Below are positions 1 through 11,117 of a stretch of DNA of 40,115 bases, piece by piece. The position numbers and the translations under genes were made by a program. Every line of letters starts with the position of its first letter. Positions within the stretch are counted from its first letter, which is position 1. The stretch is from a virus. The notes under the pieces were generated by a model. It had not been told where the DNA came from and made no database searches. It saw nothing but the letters and a program-made list of their open reading frames with translations. The stretch is from positions 1-40,115 of IMG/VR virus record IMGVR_UViG_3300032235_000137; one strand, given 5' to 3'.

Positions 1-134
1 ACTGTACCCTTGGTTACATGGTGCGTATTAGGTAGGTACGGATTCCATTTAGTGCCGTGGATAAACTCCTCGGGGTGGCTGTCCATGCGCTCAAGCAACA
101 ACTTAATTTGGTCATGACAAAAGACTTTTAGCAT
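1..134 (-). CDS. Partial leftward gene, N-terminal 44 codons of an unknown phage protein
   Basis: The reverse strand is open from an ATG at 134-132 to the left edge, giving 44 codons beginning MLKVFCHDQIKLLLERMD; the rest lies outside the window. The ATG overlaps the end of the VRR-NUC gene by seven bases (ATGCTAA), the tight coupling seen throughout this arm, which supports it as a real downstream member of the same operon. The visible part has one predicted helix followed by a Trp/His/Pro-rich stretch with no motif I recognise. Function unknown; too little of the protein is present to assign a family. Confidence 0.6.
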   Translation of the reverse strand, partial: MLKVFCHDQIKLLLERMDSHPEEFIHGTKWNPYLPNTHHVTKGT

Positions 135-439
135 CGGTCATCGTCCTCAGTAGTCATCATCTGCTTTACAAAAATCTCAAGGGTTTTTTGGTTGTCTTCG
201 TTGATGACAAAGGTAACTCCACGAGCGTCATTGATGCGCTTGAGTTCACGGTCTTGAAGGGCTGTCGTCTTACCTTTGCCAGCCTTACATTCAATGGCTA
301 CAAAGAGTCCGTGCATACAGCAGATGATGTCAGGCACACCTGACCTTCCAAAGCCATGTGTGGCTGGGAAGAAGTGATACACATTGTATTTTTTCAGTAG
401 CTTAACCACTGAGGCTTTAACCTTGGCTTCGGGCGTCAT
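128..439 (-). CDS. VRR-NUC domain nuclease (Holliday-junction-resolvase-like)
   Basis: This 103-residue protein is essentially a single VRR-NUC domain, the small PD-(D/E)XK nuclease found in phages and as the catalytic part of FAN1. Visible signatures are the G34-V-P-D37 motif, E50-x-K52 (ECK) on the following strand and Q62 after a GKGKTTAL stretch, which together match the family's catalytic core. Phage stand-alone copies are thought to cut branched DNA during replication, recombination or packaging. It has its own promoter (473-500) about 27 nt upstream of the ATG and lies beyond a terminator (571-596), so it starts a separate transcription unit that continues off the left edge. The assignment rests on motif recognition. 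Confidence 0.85.
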   Translation of the reverse strand: MTPEAKVKASVVKLLKKYNVYHFFPATHGFGRSGVPDIICCMHGLFVAIECKAGKGKTTALQDRELKRINDARGVTFVINEDNQKTLEIFVKQMMTTEDDDRC

Positions 440-570: not shown

Positions 571-596
571 ATAAAAAAGCCACCCGAAGGTGGCTT
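571..596 (-). terminator. Intrinsic terminator of the left early operon
   Basis: Read leftward, an 8-bp stem (AAGCCACC/GGTGGCTT) with a four-base loop is followed by a run of six T. It ends transcripts arriving from the 743-9240 block. The 24 bases 573-596 are identical to 10353-10376, the terminator of the 10393-11058 gene, so the phage uses the same terminator twice. Confidence 0.85.
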
Positions 597-2195: not shown

Positions 2196-3065
2196 TTAGA
2201 AATTAAACTTGGACAAAATCGTATCGACCTTCATCTTAACTACCTCACGAGCATTGCTGTTATCACGCAAGCTATCAAGGCTGTGATGTGCGATGGCTAA
2301 CTCGAGTTCCCTGCGTGCCTGCTCAAGCGATGGGTCTTTGGTGATGTTAAGGTGCTTAAGCATATCCACTAACTCCACTCCATTCTCTACTAGGGAGTCA
2401 CGGAATATTTTTCGTGAGCCGTCAGCGTTGTCAGTAAGCCTTTCACTCATACGAGATAAGCAATCATGTAAGCGACTCCATGCCTCACGCATAGCGTTGT
2501 TCAGCCTGTCCTGATACGCAGAGTTGCAGTTCGCAATGATCTCGGCTTTGGCTTCTTCGTTAATGTCGATACGGAAATCACCTGCCGTTGGTACAGGGAA
2601 GAAACTATATGTGAACTTGAACTTCTTGCGTAGCGCATCTTCATGTGGATACTCGTTTCTGTCGAACAGGTTGCCCAGTTGGAACGCAGCAGCACTTACT
2701 AAGCTAGGATATGCCACGATAAACTTATCGACTAGGGCTTCGTAGTTGGTTTCGAGTTCACCGAGCTGCTGTTTGTAATTCATGAAGTTACTCATGGGTA
2801 GCAGTCGTGAGCCGTTGTCAGTCCAAGGCAAGGTCTGTGAGATGTGCCATGCTCTAGCATTAGCGGCATACTTCACGATGGTATCAAGCACCCCAGTACC
2901 AGCCATGAGGTTCTTGTTTGCATTGACCACCTTGGTCTTTGCGCCGTTATCTAAGTCGACCTGCGTAGATACACGCTTGTCTAGCTTGCGTGCAGTCCAT
3001 GTGCTGATGGACATTTCGACTAGCATTGCTGATGATGCGATTGAGATACTGTTACTTGTGTTCAT
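2196..3065 (-). CDS. DUF3150-like protein, partner of the MoxR/VWA pair
   Basis: From an ATG at 3065 preceded by AAGGAGAATCAC the product is 289 residues. An upstream in-frame start would run through palindromic site 2 and the end of the RHH gene and lacks a ribosome site. The N-terminus (LVEMSISTWTARKLDKRVS) and the later ARAWH...TLPW.D.GSRLLP and AYPSLV segments resemble DUF3150 proteins, which in integrative elements are encoded beside a MoxR ATPase and a VWA protein, as here. The C-terminal half is helical, probably coiled-coil. The role is unknown; a substrate adaptor for the ATPase is a reasonable guess. Family assignment is from memory of the pattern, not a search. Confidence 0.7.
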   Translation of the reverse strand: MNTSNSISIASSAMLVEMSISTWTARKLDKRVSTQVDLDNGAKTKVVNANKNLMAGTGVLDTIVKYAANARAWHISQTLPWTDNGSRLLPMSNFMNYKQQLGELETNYEALVDKFIVAYPSLVSAAAFQLGNLFDRNEYPHEDALRKKFKFTYSFFPVPTAGDFRIDINEEAKAEIIANCNSAYQDRLNNAMREAWSRLHDCLSRMSERLTDNADGSRKIFRDSLVENGVELVDMLKHLNITKDPSLEQARRELELAIAHHSLDSLRDNSNAREVVKMKVDTILSKFNF

Positions 3066-3083
3066 GTGATTCTCCTTGATTGG

Positions 3084-3114
3084 TTCACAAATCGAAATTA
3101 TTTCGAAATGTGAT
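3084..3114. promoter_or_regulatory. 31-bp two-fold symmetric site, copy 2 of 6
   Basis: TTCACAAATCGAA and TTCGAAATGTGAT across a 5-base spacer. It lies 19 to 49 bases upstream of the DUF3150-like start and overlaps the last codons and stop of the ribbon-helix-helix gene, so protein bound here could affect both genes. Confidence 0.75.
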
Positions 3115-3250
3115 GTTGGATTAAATGTTGTATTACTTGCGAATACGATGGTGTGAACCCCCATTCCTGGGCTAGCTTAACTTTCATCTCGGTAAGCTGA
3201 GCCATTGTCTCGGGGCGGATTGATACATTTACTTTATTTGGTGTTGCCAT
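3098..3250 (-). CDS. Ribbon-helix-helix DNA-binding miniprotein, 50 aa
   Basis: A short reading frame from ATG 3250 to TAA 3098 encodes 50 residues that read as an Arc/MetJ/CopG fold: a beta strand (NKVNVSIRP), a first helix (ETMAQLTEMKVKLAQEWG), the turn FTPSYSQV and a second helix (SQVIQHLIQHHISK). Such proteins dimerise and insert the paired strands into the major groove of palindromic operators. The gene starts one base after the stop of the 3252 gene, with a GGAG site in that gene's end, and its own 3' end contains symmetric site 2. I infer that it may be the regulator reading the six sites. A single strand residue pattern (V8, S10, R12) would face DNA. Confidence 0.75.
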   Translation of the reverse strand: MATPNKVNVSIRPETMAQLTEMKVKLAQEWGFTPSYSQVIQHLIQHHISK

Positions 3251-3251
3251 T

Positions 3252-3443
3252 TCATTTCTCCAAAAATTCAAGCCATTTAGTCATAACTTCTACATCTTCA
3301 AACTTAACTCCATTTAAAACTGGGCGTTCATAAAACCCAATGCGAATGATCTGATACCGATCACCTTTCTTGTGCGCCCTATGCTCAAACTTAACCCCCT
3401 CATCACGCTCATAATTCGCAATGATTTGGTCTAGTGCATCCAT
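3252..3443 (-). CDS. Small protein of unknown function, 63 aa
   Basis: A 63-residue acidic/basic mixed protein starting MDALDQIIANYERDEGVKF after a good AAGGAGTAGAG ribosome site. The centre (RYQIIRIGFYERPVLNG) predicts two strands and the end (VEVMTKWLEFLEK) a helix. It lies two bases from the preceding gene and one base before the RHH gene, so it is translated in the same cascade. I recognise no family. Its position beside the DUF3150-like and VWA genes makes it a possible accessory member of that set. Confidence 0.65.
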   Translation of the reverse strand: MDALDQIIANYERDEGVKFEHRAHKKGDRYQIIRIGFYERPVLNGVKFEDVEVMTKWLEFLEK

Positions 3444-3445
3444 CT

Positions 3446-3736
3446 CTACTCCTTATCTAAAAAGTTTAAGCCTTTGGCAACGCAATGTGCCTCATGCTTG
3501 GTTAAGTTATCTACTACTATCGGCTTACTTCTACTACTTAATTCGTTATACAAAAGTGGTGCGTTTAACTTAGCTACTGCCTTGTACTCGTAAATAACAT
3601 CTATACCCCAAGTATTTAGGTTGTAGTTTCCATACTTCTTTGCTACCTTAATCACGCACCAATCCTTGTAGTGGGACTTGTCGACCTTATTCTCCTCGGC
3701 TTTCTTAGCCCACCACGACTTCTTGTTACTCCACAT
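3446..3736 (-). CDS. Unknown 96-aa basic protein overlapping the VWA gene
   Basis: The start chosen is the ATG at 3736 (MWSNKKSWWAKKAEEN), 11 bases inside the end of the VWA gene; a longer frame to 3817 would be a 92-base overlap with a Ser/Pro/Leu-rich, unlikely leader. The N-terminus is Trp/Lys-rich; the rest (HYKDWCVIKVAKKYGNYNLNTWGIDVIYEYKAVAKLN) looks beta-rich, and the end HEAHCVAKGLNFLDKE helical. The last 30 residues, VDNLTKHEAHCVAKGLN, resemble small domains in which a helix follows an NLT strand in many phage hypothetical proteins. No function can be assigned; translational coupling to the VWA gene suggests a shared process. Confidence 0.65.
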   Translation of the reverse strand: MWSNKKSWWAKKAEENKVDKSHYKDWCVIKVAKKYGNYNLNTWGIDVIYEYKAVAKLNAPLLYNELSSRSKPIVVDNLTKHEAHCVAKGLNFLDKE

Positions 3737-4970
3737 GGACAGTCTTACCAATAGGGGCGACAAACCTACTATTGCCTTTGATGCACCACAGCACAGGGGC
3801 TTCGATGTTCCAGTCACTCACATTCTGATGCCCGATGTAGCCGTCACTCAGCATGAGCAAACACTCAGGCTTCATGTTGTGCTTGTTCATATACTTAGGC
3901 ACGCACGCTGGTTCAGTACCACCCCCACCCGCAGGCTTCGTGCTCTCCGTCAATCCTGCCAGCTCGTTCTCCGTATATGTTTCTCTAGCAGCCACATGGG
4001 TATCCCAATAAAGCAGGTCGATTACCTCGGGCGATACTTCCTCGCAGATGGACTTCACCTCGGATAGAAACTGACTTAGTTCCTCAGTACCGATCGAGCC
4101 TGATGTGTCGATAGCGATTGTGATACCACCTACCTTCTCAGAATACGATGAGGGCATGATGAGATCGGCCGCAAGATAACGCTTATGCAGTCTGCGCCAC
4201 GAGGACTGGTCTTTGCCTTGCGTCATGGACTTGACGAACTCACGCAGGGCTTCCTTCCAATCAATCTTCGGGGTTAGCATCTCGCTGATGTTGCGATCTA
4301 CATTGCCACCCATCTTACCTACGAGGATCGAACCTTGACGCAGGGCTTGCTCGATCTCCTTGCCAGCCGCTTCCTTCTCCTCTTGGGTTGCATCCCCAGC
4401 CCCTTCCCAATCATGCTCATCGAATGTGGGAATTCCCTCGCCATCATCGGGACCGTTCCCATCACTTGGTTCTCCAGCAACAAGAATAGTTTTGCCCTTG
4501 CCGTAGTCCTCGCCCTTCTCCTCGATTAGTTTAAGGAAAACTTCTTGCGAGTCCATGCCCCGATACTTCTCATCTAAGCACCCCATCGGTTTGCCTTCTG
4601 CGTTGGTGGGCATCTCGGTATCAATGTGGTTAGGGTCATAGTCATGGATTTGTAAGTTGATTACATAGTCGCATGCAATGTTCGCAAGAATAGGATTGCG
4701 CTTGTATAGCTTCTCCCATACCACTAGGTGACGATAAGCCTTGTGCATATTCTCATGCAAGATAAGAAAGGCTAGTTGCTTGTCGTTCAAACTCTGCACG
4801 AACTCACGACCATAGCTTACATCTAAGCCGTTGGTACGAGCCGTAGGTGTTGTGTCATCTACGCTAACCTTGCCAATCATGAACAGCCCCGAGAACAATG
4901 CAAAGTTCTTGTGCTTCATTAACTGCACATGGCAACGCTCGATGCGTTGTTCTGCTGATAACTTACTCAT
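3726..4970 (-). CDS. DUF2201-type metallopeptidase-like / VWA domain protein
   Basis: The 414-residue product has two domains. The N-terminal metallopeptidase-like half carries H72-E-N-M-H76, an HExxH zinc motif in a helix (LAFLILHENMHKAYRH). After an acidic linker (about 150-200) comes a C-terminal von Willebrand A domain with a complete MIDAS: D288-T-S290-G-S292, T352 in GGGGTE and D376 in LMLSDGY. This matches the DUF2201_N plus DUF2201 (VWA-like) architecture. Such proteins work with MoxR AAA+ ATPases in chaperone or metal-insertion-like remodelling. It shares one base with the upstream membrane-peptide gene (TAATG). Both the zinc motif and the MIDAS are intact, so the protein is probably functional. 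Its substrate in the infected cell is unknown. Confidence 0.88.
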   Translation of the reverse strand: MSKLSAEQRIERCHVQLMKHKNFALFSGLFMIGKVSVDDTTPTARTNGLDVSYGREFVQSLNDKQLAFLILHENMHKAYRHLVVWEKLYKRNPILANIACDYVINLQIHDYDPNHIDTEMPTNAEGKPMGCLDEKYRGMDSQEVFLKLIEEKGEDYGKGKTILVAGEPSDGNGPDDGEGIPTFDEHDWEGAGDATQEEKEAAGKEIEQALRQGSILVGKMGGNVDRNISEMLTPKIDWKEALREFVKSMTQGKDQSSWRRLHKRYLAADLIMPSSYSEKVGGITIAIDTSGSIGTEELSQFLSEVKSICEEVSPEVIDLLYWDTHVAARETYTENELAGLTESTKPAGGGGTEPACVPKYMNKHNMKPECLLMLSDGYIGHQNVSDWNIEAPVLWCIKGNSRFVAPIGKTVHVE

Positions 4971-5101
4971 TATCTACCCCCATTAAATACTTCAAACAAT
5001 TTAAGTCCAACCCAAAGGATTAGAACTATCCCACCTAAGAACAGCCCTAGGGCGATCAACCATGCACCTATGTCCGCCATTAACATGCCTAGTTCAAACA
5101 T
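4970..5101 (-). CDS. Single-span membrane miniprotein, 43 aa
   Basis: A short frame from ATG 5101 to TAA 4970 encodes 43 residues: a short N-terminus, a hydrophobic span of about 23 residues (IGAWLIALGLFLGGIVLILWVG), then KLFEVFNGGR. Its start overlaps the upstream gene by eight bases and its stop overlaps the VWA start in TAATG, so it is fully embedded in the coupled cascade between the MoxR and VWA genes. A second Met at residue 8 could also be the start. The charge distribution (acidic before, Lys after) suggests the C-terminus is in the cytoplasm. It could tether the ATPase/VWA machinery to the membrane; that is inference. Confidence 0.65.
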   Translation of the reverse strand: MFELGMLMADIGAWLIALGLFLGGIVLILWVGLKLFEVFNGGR

Positions 5102-5303
5102 GGCCTATGTCCTTCTCTATTAAGTCGATGTTGTTACCTACTGCGTTTAATATCTCAGCCTTGCTCATACCTTCTTTTCTAGCCGTTAGAATTAAACACA
5201 TACCCAGCGCCCCCATTGCAATGTTCGGTGGCACTTCTTCTTCCATGAACATGGTCATAACTCTTATTGCTAGATCTTGTACAGGGTGTAGTGGTTTTGA
5301 CAT
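5094..5303 (-). CDS. Small helical protein of unknown function, 69 aa
   Basis: The start at 5303 is chosen because AAGGAGAAACAA precedes MSKPLHPVQDL; an earlier in-frame ATG at 5336 lies within the end of the MoxR gene. The product is 69 residues, almost entirely helical: HPVQDLAIRVMTMFMEEE, then a moderately hydrophobic IAMGALGMCLILTA, then MSKAEILNAVGNNIDLIEKD. The middle hydrophobic stretch is short and may be a buried helix rather than a membrane span. It is located between the MoxR ATPase and the membrane miniprotein. I recognise no family. Confidence 0.7.
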   Translation of the reverse strand: MSKPLHPVQDLAIRVMTMFMEEEVPPNIAMGALGMCLILTARKEGMSKAEILNAVGNNIDLIEKDIGHV

Positions 5304-5313
5304 TTGTTTCTCC

Positions 5314-6408
5314 TTAAAATAAGTATTGGTTTTCACGCATCCAAGTAACGAATGACTGGCTAGTAAAGAATAGCTTTTTCTTCTCGTCGTCCTTCATACC
5401 AGTCAAGCAGAACACAGACTGCAACTCCTTGGGTGTGCGCTTGAGATACTCAAAGAACTTACCGATGCTTTCACGATCAATCTTCTGCACCGCAGAGAAC
5501 GCTAGCAAGCACAATGCGGCTGGGCTTGTCGGCACTACGGCTGTCGATGGGCTCTTGCAAATCTCCTCCCAAGTCGGAAGACTGTCGGCTACGGCAACAT
5601 ATGACATCAAGTCACGCGCTGCGGGCGCCCCAATCGTACCTTCTAGTGCACAAAGGGTTGCGTTCTCCGTTACCAGATGACGATTGTTAATAAGATGTGA
5701 TGCTCTAGCAAGGGAACGAGGCGAAACAAAAGACTTCTGCACTTCCTTTGGGTTGAAGATGTACTTGTTACCTGCCTGACTTGGCTCGAGGTACGACCCT
5801 AGGGTGTGTGGATTCTCCTTGACCCATGCAAGAATCTCAGGTGCAACTCCGTTACGCAATGCCCAGTAACCCCATGAGTCCTCATCAACCGAGCCATCTA
5901 CATTGAACCCAGCGTGTGGTTTCTTAATATTGATTACGCTCAAACGATTTCTTGAATGGCTCATCATATTGTCGCCCACTCCGTCGGTGGTGTAGTTACC
6001 AGCAGTAATCACAATGGTATCGGGATGCAGAGGGATACCCATGATCTGCCGTGGCTCGTTCAGCATGGGGTGTAGCATATTCTTAACTGACTGATGCCCC
6101 TTGGTGAACTCGTCGGCAAAGATAACGAGTGGCTCGTTCAGATGGAAACCCCATTGCTCGTTCGGATATATCTTGGTGGTCTTGGTTGTGTGGTCAGGAA
6201 TCGGAATACCCAGCTCGCCCAGTTCCACATTAGGCACATCGATATAGATACCCTTGAACCCTGTACGCTCTACGATATTCTTGAACATAGAAGTCTTGCC
6301 GACCCCAGGCTCACCCATGAGGTGAAAGGTTGAACCCGAGCCCATTGCGACAATCATGTCCTCAGCTTCTTTGAGGGTTGCATTACGGTTTAATAATACT
6401 TCTGACAT
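5314..6408 (-). CDS. MoxR-like AAA+ ATPase
   Basis: A 364-residue single-module AAA+ ATPase. The Walker A motif is G32-E-P-G-V-G-K-T (32-39), the Walker B LVIFADE ends at E100, sensor 1 is the Asn of TAGNYTT (about 138), and the segment DNMMSHSRNRL (146-156) supplies arginine-finger candidates; HPMLNE after Walker B is typical of the MoxR branch. MoxR proteins form hexamers that remodel protein targets together with VWA-domain partners, encoded here four genes downstream in the same operon along with a DUF3150-like protein. The start follows AAGGAGAATTAA, and symmetric site 3 lies just upstream, so this module may be regulated as a unit. The substrate is unknown. Confidence 0.88.
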   Translation of the reverse strand: MSEVLLNRNATLKEAEDMIVAMGSGSTFHLMGEPGVGKTSMFKNIVERTGFKGIYIDVPNVELGELGIPIPDHTTKTTKIYPNEQWGFHLNEPLVIFADEFTKGHQSVKNMLHPMLNEPRQIMGIPLHPDTIVITAGNYTTDGVGDNMMSHSRNRLSVINIKKPHAGFNVDGSVDEDSWGYWALRNGVAPEILAWVKENPHTLGSYLEPSQAGNKYIFNPKEVQKSFVSPRSLARASHLINNRHLVTENATLCALEGTIGAPAARDLMSYVAVADSLPTWEEICKSPSTAVVPTSPAALCLLAFSAVQKIDRESIGKFFEYLKRTPKELQSVFCLTGMKDDEKKKLFFTSQSFVTWMRENQYLF

Positions 6409-6433: not shown

Positions 6434-6464
6434 TTCACTTATCGAAACCATTTCGATTTGTGAT
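6434..6464. promoter_or_regulatory. 31-bp two-fold symmetric site, copy 3 of 6
   Basis: TTCACTTATCGAA and TTCGATTTGTGAT across a 5-base spacer. It fills the gap between the end of the 6465 gene and the ribosome site of the MoxR ATPase. The A/T bases in the two arms do not pair (T opposite T), which favours a DNA-protein site over an RNA hairpin. Confidence 0.75.
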
Positions 6465-7415
6465 TTACTGCATGTACTTCTTGTTCTTATCGGGAAACGC
6501 ACACCCGATCGGATACTCCTCTTTCTCAAACACTACCTCGTGATGCTGATACTTGAGCATTTCTGTAAAGCCACGCTCGAACGCTTTGGGTGAACAGGAA
6601 TACGCTGAACTCTGATAGTCATATCCAGCAAAGGAAGCCCCAATAAACTGTGCTAGCTTATAGCTTAAGTCTAAGTCGTTAGTGTCCATAGCCTTCTGCA
6701 CATGACGGAAGAACAGTTCACGATTAGGCTTGGAATACTGACGACCATGCCAGCCTTGTGGTGTCAAGCACTTGCCTGCAAACCCAAGCGCCTCCCCCGT
6801 GTCCATAGTTATCCGACTGTCCATTGCCAGCATAGTGCGTGTGTAGTCCATGAACTCCTTGTAGTACTTACGCAACTTGTTCAGTTCCTTGCGCTTAGCC
6901 TTGTAGGTGTACTCCTGCACAGGGTTAGTCGGCCTCATGATGCCATTCTCACCAGCCACAAGTCGTAGCCCATGACGCTTGTCCTTCTCATACTCGGGTA
7001 GCACATACTCCTCGCCAGCCTTGTTCTTGAAGTACCACTTGCCATCATGTGATGCGATAGTCCCGTAGTTAGTCAAGCTATGCGTGATAAAGCCCATCGC
7101 CGTCGGTGTATGCCAGCTTGCATCTCTGATAACAACCGAGCCGTCTTTGAAGAACTCAACCATGTCGTTGCCCCACAGGTGGCAGGCATAAGACTTCTCA
7201 AGCCAACCAAGTGGCTGATCGTCTGACATATAGCAGTTGGTGTTCTCCTTGATCTCGAACCATGTGTAACGGCGGTTCTTACCCAAGGGCTTGCACTCCT
7301 TTGACCTGCCTTGGATAGGCTTAACGGACTTGAAGTGATCCCGCATAAACTCAAAACCCGTAATCGCTGGTATGCGTGCGGAGTTGTACATTCGTGTGTT
7401 ATATCCCCAACCCAT
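6465..7415 (-). CDS. Unknown 316-aa early protein
   Basis: A 316-residue protein starting MGWGYNTRMYNSARIPAI, rich in aromatic residues throughout (many W, Y, F) with an apparent beta-rich N-terminal half (RYTWFEIKENTNCYM, NDMVEFFKDGSVVIRD, THSLTNYGTIASHDGKWYFKN) and a helical C-terminal half beginning TYKAKRKELNKLRKYYKEFMDYTRTML. No transmembrane segment or signal peptide. I do not recognise the family. Its start shares one base with the stop of the upstream winged-helix-like gene (TAATG). Symmetric site 3 follows its stop. The beta-rich half recalls domains that bind nucleic acid or carbohydrate, but nothing specific supports either. Confidence 0.7.
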   Translation of the reverse strand: MGWGYNTRMYNSARIPAITGFEFMRDHFKSVKPIQGRSKECKPLGKNRRYTWFEIKENTNCYMSDDQPLGWLEKSYACHLWGNDMVEFFKDGSVVIRDASWHTPTAMGFITHSLTNYGTIASHDGKWYFKNKAGEEYVLPEYEKDKRHGLRLVAGENGIMRPTNPVQEYTYKAKRKELNKLRKYYKEFMDYTRTMLAMDSRITMDTGEALGFAGKCLTPQGWHGRQYSKPNRELFFRHVQKAMDTNDLDLSYKLAQFIGASFAGYDYQSSAYSCSPKAFERGFTEMLKYQHHEVVFEKEEYPIGCAFPDKNKKYMQ

Positions 7416-8125
7416 TATTTACTCCCGAATAGTTTGGACTCAAGATACTCAACCGTTGCCCGTAACTTAGTTACTTCTTCCATAACCTCGGTTACTTCGC
7501 TAGTTACATCACGGGTCTTGCGAGCTTTGGCTAGGGCATCACGCAGTTCAAGGATTTCATGCGCTTGTTTGCGTGATTCTGCCTGCCATTCGCTTATCCG
7601 TTTCTCGAGAAACGCAGCATAGTCCCCCTTGCTTGAGAGTGTTCCGAATGGGTTTGGGACTGGTTTGCCATCATTTATGCGAACACGGAGGGTTTGTTTG
7701 TCGGCGGATAATTTTGCGGTTACAGAAGATGACCGTTTTTCTACTTTTTTAGGCTGGGCATCGGGCTTGTAACCCTTGGCTTTAGCCTCGTCAGGTGTGT
7801 AGTAACGGGTGATACCTGAGTCCTTGTTGGTATATCTGACTAGCTTACCGATGTTCATGAGGCGACCTAGCTGCATATTAACTATCTTAATATTGTCTTC
7901 TCCACAATAGGTTGCGATTGCTTGGGGCGTACGCAGCCCACTACCCGTAACTGCACTCATGATGCGGTCTTGCAAGGGCTTGATGTGCTTGGGGTAGTTG
8001 ATAGCACGCTTGGGCTTTTCTTCACTAATCGAATTAGTTTCGATTTGTGGTTCTTGCAGGTTGTAGCCCGAGAGGTGGTTCTTGATCTGAAACTCTTTGA
8101 GTTTGTCGATTGCTTCTTGGTTCAT
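7415..8125 (-). CDS. Putative winged-helix DNA-binding protein with C-terminal coiled coil
   Basis: A 236-residue protein. Residues about 45-110 (IKPLQDRIMSAVTGSGLRTPQAIATYCG...NMQLGRLMNIGKLVRYTNKDSGITRYYTP) look like a winged-helix domain: a three-helix core followed by a beta wing. A basic linker (KPDAQPKKVEKRSSS) leads to a predicted coiled coil (about 170-232, WQAESRKQAHEILELRDALAKARK and EVMEEVTKLRATVEYLESKL) suited to dimerisation. The ATG at 8125 has the AATCAAGGAGAATTAC leader shared with two other genes in the arm. Symmetric site 4 lies inside its coding region, around codons 25-35. It is a candidate regulator or replication-associated DNA-binding protein. The fold is inferred from pattern, not from a search. 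Confidence 0.7.
   Translation of the reverse strand: MNQEAIDKLKEFQIKNHLSGYNLQEPQIETNSISEEKPKRAINYPKHIKPLQDRIMSAVTGSGLRTPQAIATYCGEDNIKIVNMQLGRLMNIGKLVRYTNKDSGITRYYTPDEAKAKGYKPDAQPKKVEKRSSSVTAKLSADKQTLRVRINDGKPVPNPFGTLSSKGDYAAFLEKRISEWQAESRKQAHEILELRDALAKARKTRDVTSEVTEVMEEVTKLRATVEYLESKLFGSK
8021..8051. promoter_or_regulatory. 31-bp two-fold symmetric site, copy 4 of 6 (intragenic)
   Basis: TTCACTAATCGAA and TTCGATTTGTGGT across a 5-base spacer. It is the most diverged copy and the only one inside a coding region, about 75 bases into the winged-helix-like gene. Coding constraint may explain the drift, or the site may act as a roadblock within the gene. Confidence 0.6.
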
Positions 8126-9257: not shown

Positions 9258-9289
9258 TTCACAAATCGAATCGGGTATCGAAATGTGAA
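9258..9289. promoter_or_regulatory. Two-fold symmetric site, copy 5 of 6 (6-base spacer)
   Basis: TTCACAAATCGAA and ATCGAAATGTGAA across a 6-base spacer, 32 bp in all. It lies in the leader of the left operon, about 40-70 bases downstream of the expected start point of the promoter at 9337-9365 and just upstream of the first ribosome site. Confidence 0.75.
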
Positions 9290-11086: not shown

Positions 11087-11117
11087 TTCACATATCGAAC
11101 CATTTTCGATTTGTGAA
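11087..11117. promoter_or_regulatory. 31-bp two-fold symmetric site, copy 6 of 6
   Basis: TTCACATATCGAA and TTCGATTTGTGAA across a 5-base spacer, the most symmetric copy (one mismatch between arms). It lies 29-59 bases upstream of the ATG at 11058. An A/T-rich TACTATATACATATG stretch (11157-11143 leftward) may be the -10 region of its promoter, but no convincing -35 is visible. Confidence 0.8.

Follow-up and report, generated by a model that had tools for sequence, protein, structure and literature searches.

The window, that is, the whole stretch of DNA analysed here, is an IMG/VR virus contig of 40,115 bases in which the genes of the module run leftward on the minus strand. The four open reading frames named in the initial annotation were all confirmed by an ORF check. 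They encode a MoxR-type AAA+ ATPase of 364 amino acids (5314-6408; phrog_1297), identified by Pfam, PHROG, motif alignment and PDB profile match; a 43-residue peptide with a single transmembrane segment (4970-5101); a protein of 414 amino acids with a DUF2201_N metallopeptidase-like domain and a VWA (DUF2201) domain (3726-4970; phrog_1314), whose HExxH and MIDAS motifs are intact; and a DUF3150 protein of 289 amino acids (2196-3065), the third member of the triad by profile homology. The three small unknowns counted previously had to be corrected to four small genes. The product of 5094-5303, whose ATG lies at 5303 (the ORF was listed from a GTG at 5336), is a small helical protein and a likely member of a family of about 90 amino acids found here in relatives (HMM 15.9 bits, E = 5e-7 as a single target). 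The ORFs 3446-3736 (matched in 15 of 76 loci) and 3252-3443 (matched in the window only) encode small proteins with no assigned family, and 3098-3250 encodes a ribbon-helix-helix-like protein.

On the same strand, a conserved protein of 303 amino acids (743-1654) is encoded downstream of DUF3150. Its model has a pLDDT of 94.2 and gave no match at E ≤ 0.001 in a PDB fold search, and Pfam and PHROG scans of its relatives returned scattered chance hits only. The protein of 316 amino acids upstream of the ATPase (6465-7415, minus strand) is conserved in relatives, and comparisons with Pfam, PHROG and isolate phages gave no significant match for it. An Hjc/VRR-type nuclease (128-439, minus strand; PF01870 Hjc above cut-off) starts a DNA-metabolism block. 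A strong sigma70-like promoter at 9365-9337 lies ahead of the early-looking leftward arm that holds the module.

A pattern search found six copies of the dyad CACAwwTCGAA-N5/6-TTCGAwwTGTG in the window, with at most one mismatch (542-568, 3086-3112, 6436-6462, 8023-8049, 9260-9287 and 11089-11115). Three of these 27-bp dyads precede the Hjc gene (542-568), the DUF3150 gene (3086-3112) and the ATPase gene (6436-6462, 27 nt before its ATG). The module had been described as one translationally coupled operon, and this holds only in a narrower form: the dyads mark about three units, and the DUF3150 gene is not translationally coupled to the preceding gene because 32 nt, containing most of a 27-bp dyad, intervene. 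A hairpin resembling an intrinsic terminator (577-596, minus strand) could close the leftward unit from DUF3150 to 743-1654; such hairpins in the region do not exceed shuffles in total. In relatives, too, a similar hairpin precedes the dyad that lies ahead of the Hjc gene.

Relatives carry dyads with the same layout and other letters (3-10 per locus), which appeared in 0 of 80 shuffled loci, and the dyad sequence is phage-specific (for example in relatives L014, L027 and L044). They lie mostly 13-36 nt upstream of start codons, a placement that recalls the stoperators of mycobacteriophages, and were found before the ATPase gene in 40/43 loci, before DUF3150 in 42/45 and before Hjc in 36/41, and only in 6/46 before the VWA gene and 0/43 before 743-1654. 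Reading them as RNA hairpins is disfavoured, since one or two positions per arm are often non-complementary. The divergence of the ribbon-helix-helix gene tracks that of the dyads when VWA divergence is allowed for (partial r = 0.38, permutation p = 6e-4, 22 loci), and its product has a weak CcdA match in relative L059. By this correlation, the 3098-3250 protein is a candidate regulator of the dyads.

The ATPase matches AAA (PF00004) and AAA_5 (PF07728), both over the Pfam cut-offs, and phrog_1297 ('ATPase') with E = 8.8e-45. The motif alignments of this protein and of the VWA protein comprised the relatives, cyanophage MinM2 and phage N4. In the ATPase, G35, G37, K38, D99, E100, N138, R155 and R231, which make up Walker A, the Walker B DE, the sensor-1 asparagine, the arginine finger and the sensor-2 arginine, are invariant across 22 aligned relatives including N4 gp24. 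Its best PDB profile match is to the AAA domains of midasin (E = 3e-29), the next family reaching 1e-9, and RavA is absent among the 60 matches listed. Judged by its closest solved relatives, the protein is assigned to the midasin/MoxR branch.

The VWA protein matches both the DUF2201_N metallopeptidase domain (89.3 bits, E = 4.4e-25) and the DUF2201 VWA-like domain (53.3 bits, E = 3.9e-14) above the Pfam cut-offs, as well as phrog_1314 (E = 5.8e-87); its PDB profile match is weak. The HExxH residues (H72, E73, H76) and a complete MIDAS, consisting of DxSxS (D288, S290, S292), T352 and D376, are invariant in 34 relatives including N4 gp25. The third zinc ligand of the predicted metallopeptidase domain would be H81 or D101. 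The label 'HNH endonuclease', carried by phrog_1314 and by RefSeq records of N4-like phages such as NC_008720 gp25, was rejected for this protein, as no HNH family appeared in the Pfam scan at E ≤ 1, and is an apparent misannotation across many phage records.

Taken alone, the 2196-3065 protein scores 15.6 bits against PF11348, below the gathering cut-off of 24.9. Nevertheless, the DUF3150-like assignment was borne out at the family level. DUF3150 is matched by 19 of 30 relatives (best E = 1.1e-6), the plasmid homologues recovered with tblastn include proteins annotated as DUF3150, and an hhalign profile comparison between 29 phage sequences and six of plasmid or cyanophage origin gave a probability of 100 and E = 3.7e-56 over 278 columns. 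Moreover, one of these six, a Manganitrophus plasmid protein (L081, CP114559) that exceeds the Pfam cut-off with 35.3 bits is matched by the phage HMM at 1.6e-30. Membership is accepted as secure on this full-length homology, given the profile-profile match and the phage HMM match to the Pfam-passing protein. In Pfam scans of the window protein and its relatives, DUF3150 was the only match, with none to VMAP, STAND or FtsH. The predicted structure is mostly helical (pLDDT 87) and had no match at E ≤ 0.001 in a PDB fold search. A profile scan of genomes with the mixed alignment matched only five MAG contigs.

Concerning the linkage of the three genes, loci were fetched initially with the VWA protein. 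DUF3150 was present in 70/76 and the ATPase in 73/76 of them, nearly all having both in the window order, mostly with a homologue of 6465-7415 before the module and a homologue of 743-1654 and a nuclease after it. Because these loci over-represent close relatives, viral contigs were fetched again by DUF3150 alone: at least 590 encode it, 80 were kept, and those with at least 4 kb of flank on both sides were scored (n = 44). The ATPase and VWA genes are both on the DUF3150 strand in all 44, within a median span of 3.6 kb and in three orders of ATPase (A), VWA (V) and DUF3150 (D): A-V-D (20), A-D-V (17) and D-A-V (7). Every viral locus without a partner is truncated at a contig end. That the genes stay linked although their order changes argues strongly that they function jointly. 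The triad is also clustered in cyanophage MinM2.

The three families also occur together on plasmids, adjacent in Cupriavidus, Burkholderia and Rhodovastum and near each other in Simplicispira (four of the five plasmids examined). As in the window, they lie on one strand; unlike the window, their order is ATPase-DUF3150-VWA and homologues of 743-1654, 6465-7415 and Hjc are absent. The earlier remark that the set is known from integrative elements is thus true in the sense of plasmids. With these and the 44 loci, the proposal of a single module stands, and neither a failure of the DUF3150 call nor a separation of the ATPase and VWA genes, previously named as grounds against it, was found. On the fifth plasmid, from Manganitrophus, DUF3150 is next to an AAA ATPase whose match to the phage profile is marginal (E = 0.12), with no VWA hit, and for this reason DUF3150 may have additional partners. 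DUF1257 and DUF2997 also adjoin DUF3150 there.

The membrane peptide is a real ORF, recognisable in relatives L002 and L003, and is accessory. Its sequence relatives are confined to few loci. Counted by eye, some short hydrophobic peptide, frequently an unrelated one, is encoded between ATPase and VWA in about one fifth of the loci, while many have the helical protein of about 90 amino acids in this position and some have nothing. Recruitment to the envelope, which the initial annotation had suggested from this peptide, is not supported as a property of the module, since no peptide of this kind is present in most relatives and the existing ones are often unrelated.

The neighbouring families include DNA polymerase A, a PD-(D/E)XK nuclease, an SNF2-type helicase, DUF3310 and the Hjc resolvase. 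Across 121 triad loci (window excluded), the genes for DNA polymerase A, Hjc and the PD-(D/E)XK nuclease share the triad strand in every locus that has them. Three GenBank phages whose names refer to different cyanobacterial hosts (OQ594354, OL906435 and PP438419) have the same length of 65,014 and identical match statistics, and are possibly one genome in different permutations.

NorQ/NorD, RavA/ViaA and midasin likewise combine a MoxR- or midasin-type ATPase with a MIDAS domain, and have known cellular targets. To our knowledge, none of them has a DUF2201_N metallopeptidase domain or a DUF3150 partner. For NorQ/NorD, the plug of the ring has been assigned to the VWA domain and the target is bound through the MIDAS; MIDAS mutants lose activity and keep ATPase binding (PMC9976466). 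Among phages, a close parallel is gp24/gp25 of N4, the Schitoviridae core pair, whose ATPase and metallopeptidase-VWA homologues are adjacent in the same order, with 19% (ATPase) and 24% (VWA) identity to those of the window; DUF3150 was found nowhere in the N4 genome. This pair belongs to the small number of genes that are core to all N4-like phages and have no assigned function, and its expression falls in the middle phase, alongside that of DNA-metabolism genes (PMC4193335). It has also been noted in 0305phi8-36 (PMC2147016) and in ATV (PMC4124505). The ATPase-VWA pair is therefore already known from N4 and jumbo phages, and its tie to DUF3150 is, as far as found, apparently undescribed: a literature search of partial coverage found no paper mentioning DUF3150, nor the pair together with it.

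A MoxR/VWA-type remodeller, as proposed initially, is supported. The triad is probably, at moderate confidence, a three-part AAA+ remodelling machine with DUF3150 as its dedicated third subunit. By analogy with NorQ/NorD and midasin, the ATPase would form a ring on which the VWA protein docks, holding the target through the metal site of its MIDAS, and the zincin-like domain of the latter could clip or grip this target. The mostly helical DUF3150 protein might confer the choice of target; every complete phage locus contains it, as would suit a dedicated third subunit, and as its fold has no PDB match, this adaptor role is a guess drawn from linkage. Since the module is made with DNA-replication genes, the target would more likely be an intracellular complex than the virion. 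That it is DNA-associated is a guess, the neighbourhood being only a hint to the target.

A published alternative is that the pair acts as a chaperone of virion assembly that folds or processes structural proteins. This was proposed for the MoxR AAA+/metallopeptidase-vWA pair of jumbo phages (Iyer 2021, PMC7824862), which has the same fused partner with the N-terminal metallopeptidase (the VWA proteins of phage G and PA5oct are 31% identical to that of the window) and where DUF3150 is unreported. It has been shown in part for ATV p618/p892, also a virus-encoded MoxR ATPase and VWA partner, which interact and of which p618 binds tail proteins; unlike the window, ATV is an archaeal virus with extracellular tail growth, and its pair has no peptidase domain and no reported DUF3150. 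Some virion genes also lie near the gp24/25 homologues in roseophage RPP1. However, the triad is neither encoded nor retained with virion genes, as such a chaperone would be. The terminase and portal genes are always on the opposite strand in the 121 loci, and phages HTVC027P and DSL-LC04 lack all three triad genes despite related virion genes (terminases 55-57% identical to that of the window; in HTVC027P, capsid 65% and portal 40%). These two phages, together with plasmids that have the triad and no virion to build, make a role in virion assembly unlikely.

Two further readings concern conflict with the host or with other elements. The machine could dismantle or inactivate a host complex or a defence system, which would suit the early-looking arm behind the strong promoter, the presence of the triad in plasmids and phages, both of which face defences, and its patchy distribution among phages with similar virions. 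Against this, the set is nearly fixed in related contigs and the N4-like pair is core, unlike fast-swapping anti-defence genes, and PADLOC, which covers defence and not counter-defence systems, gave no meaningful match; we regard host takeover or counter-defence as rather doubtful. It is very unlikely that the triad is instead a conflict or superinfection-exclusion system related to the bacterial MoxR-VWA ternary systems (VMAP, iSTAND, FtsH). The logic of a MoxR-VWA core with a distinctive third protein is the same, and plasmids carry it, but this third protein matches none of those families, and no effector or death-type domains were seen beside the triad, whose neighbours are replication genes.

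Regarding the three-part remodelling machine, the linkage of the triad argues against the published virion-assembly proposal for phages of this kind. It is conceivable, although quite tentative, that DUF3150 defines a class of MoxR-VWA ternary machine common to phages and conjugative plasmids, which would remodel a DNA-processing complex that both need. With at least 590 viral contigs encoding DUF3150, the three-gene system is common in environmental phages, and the third gene tied to the pair in a larger phage family and in plasmids provides a defined complex to express.
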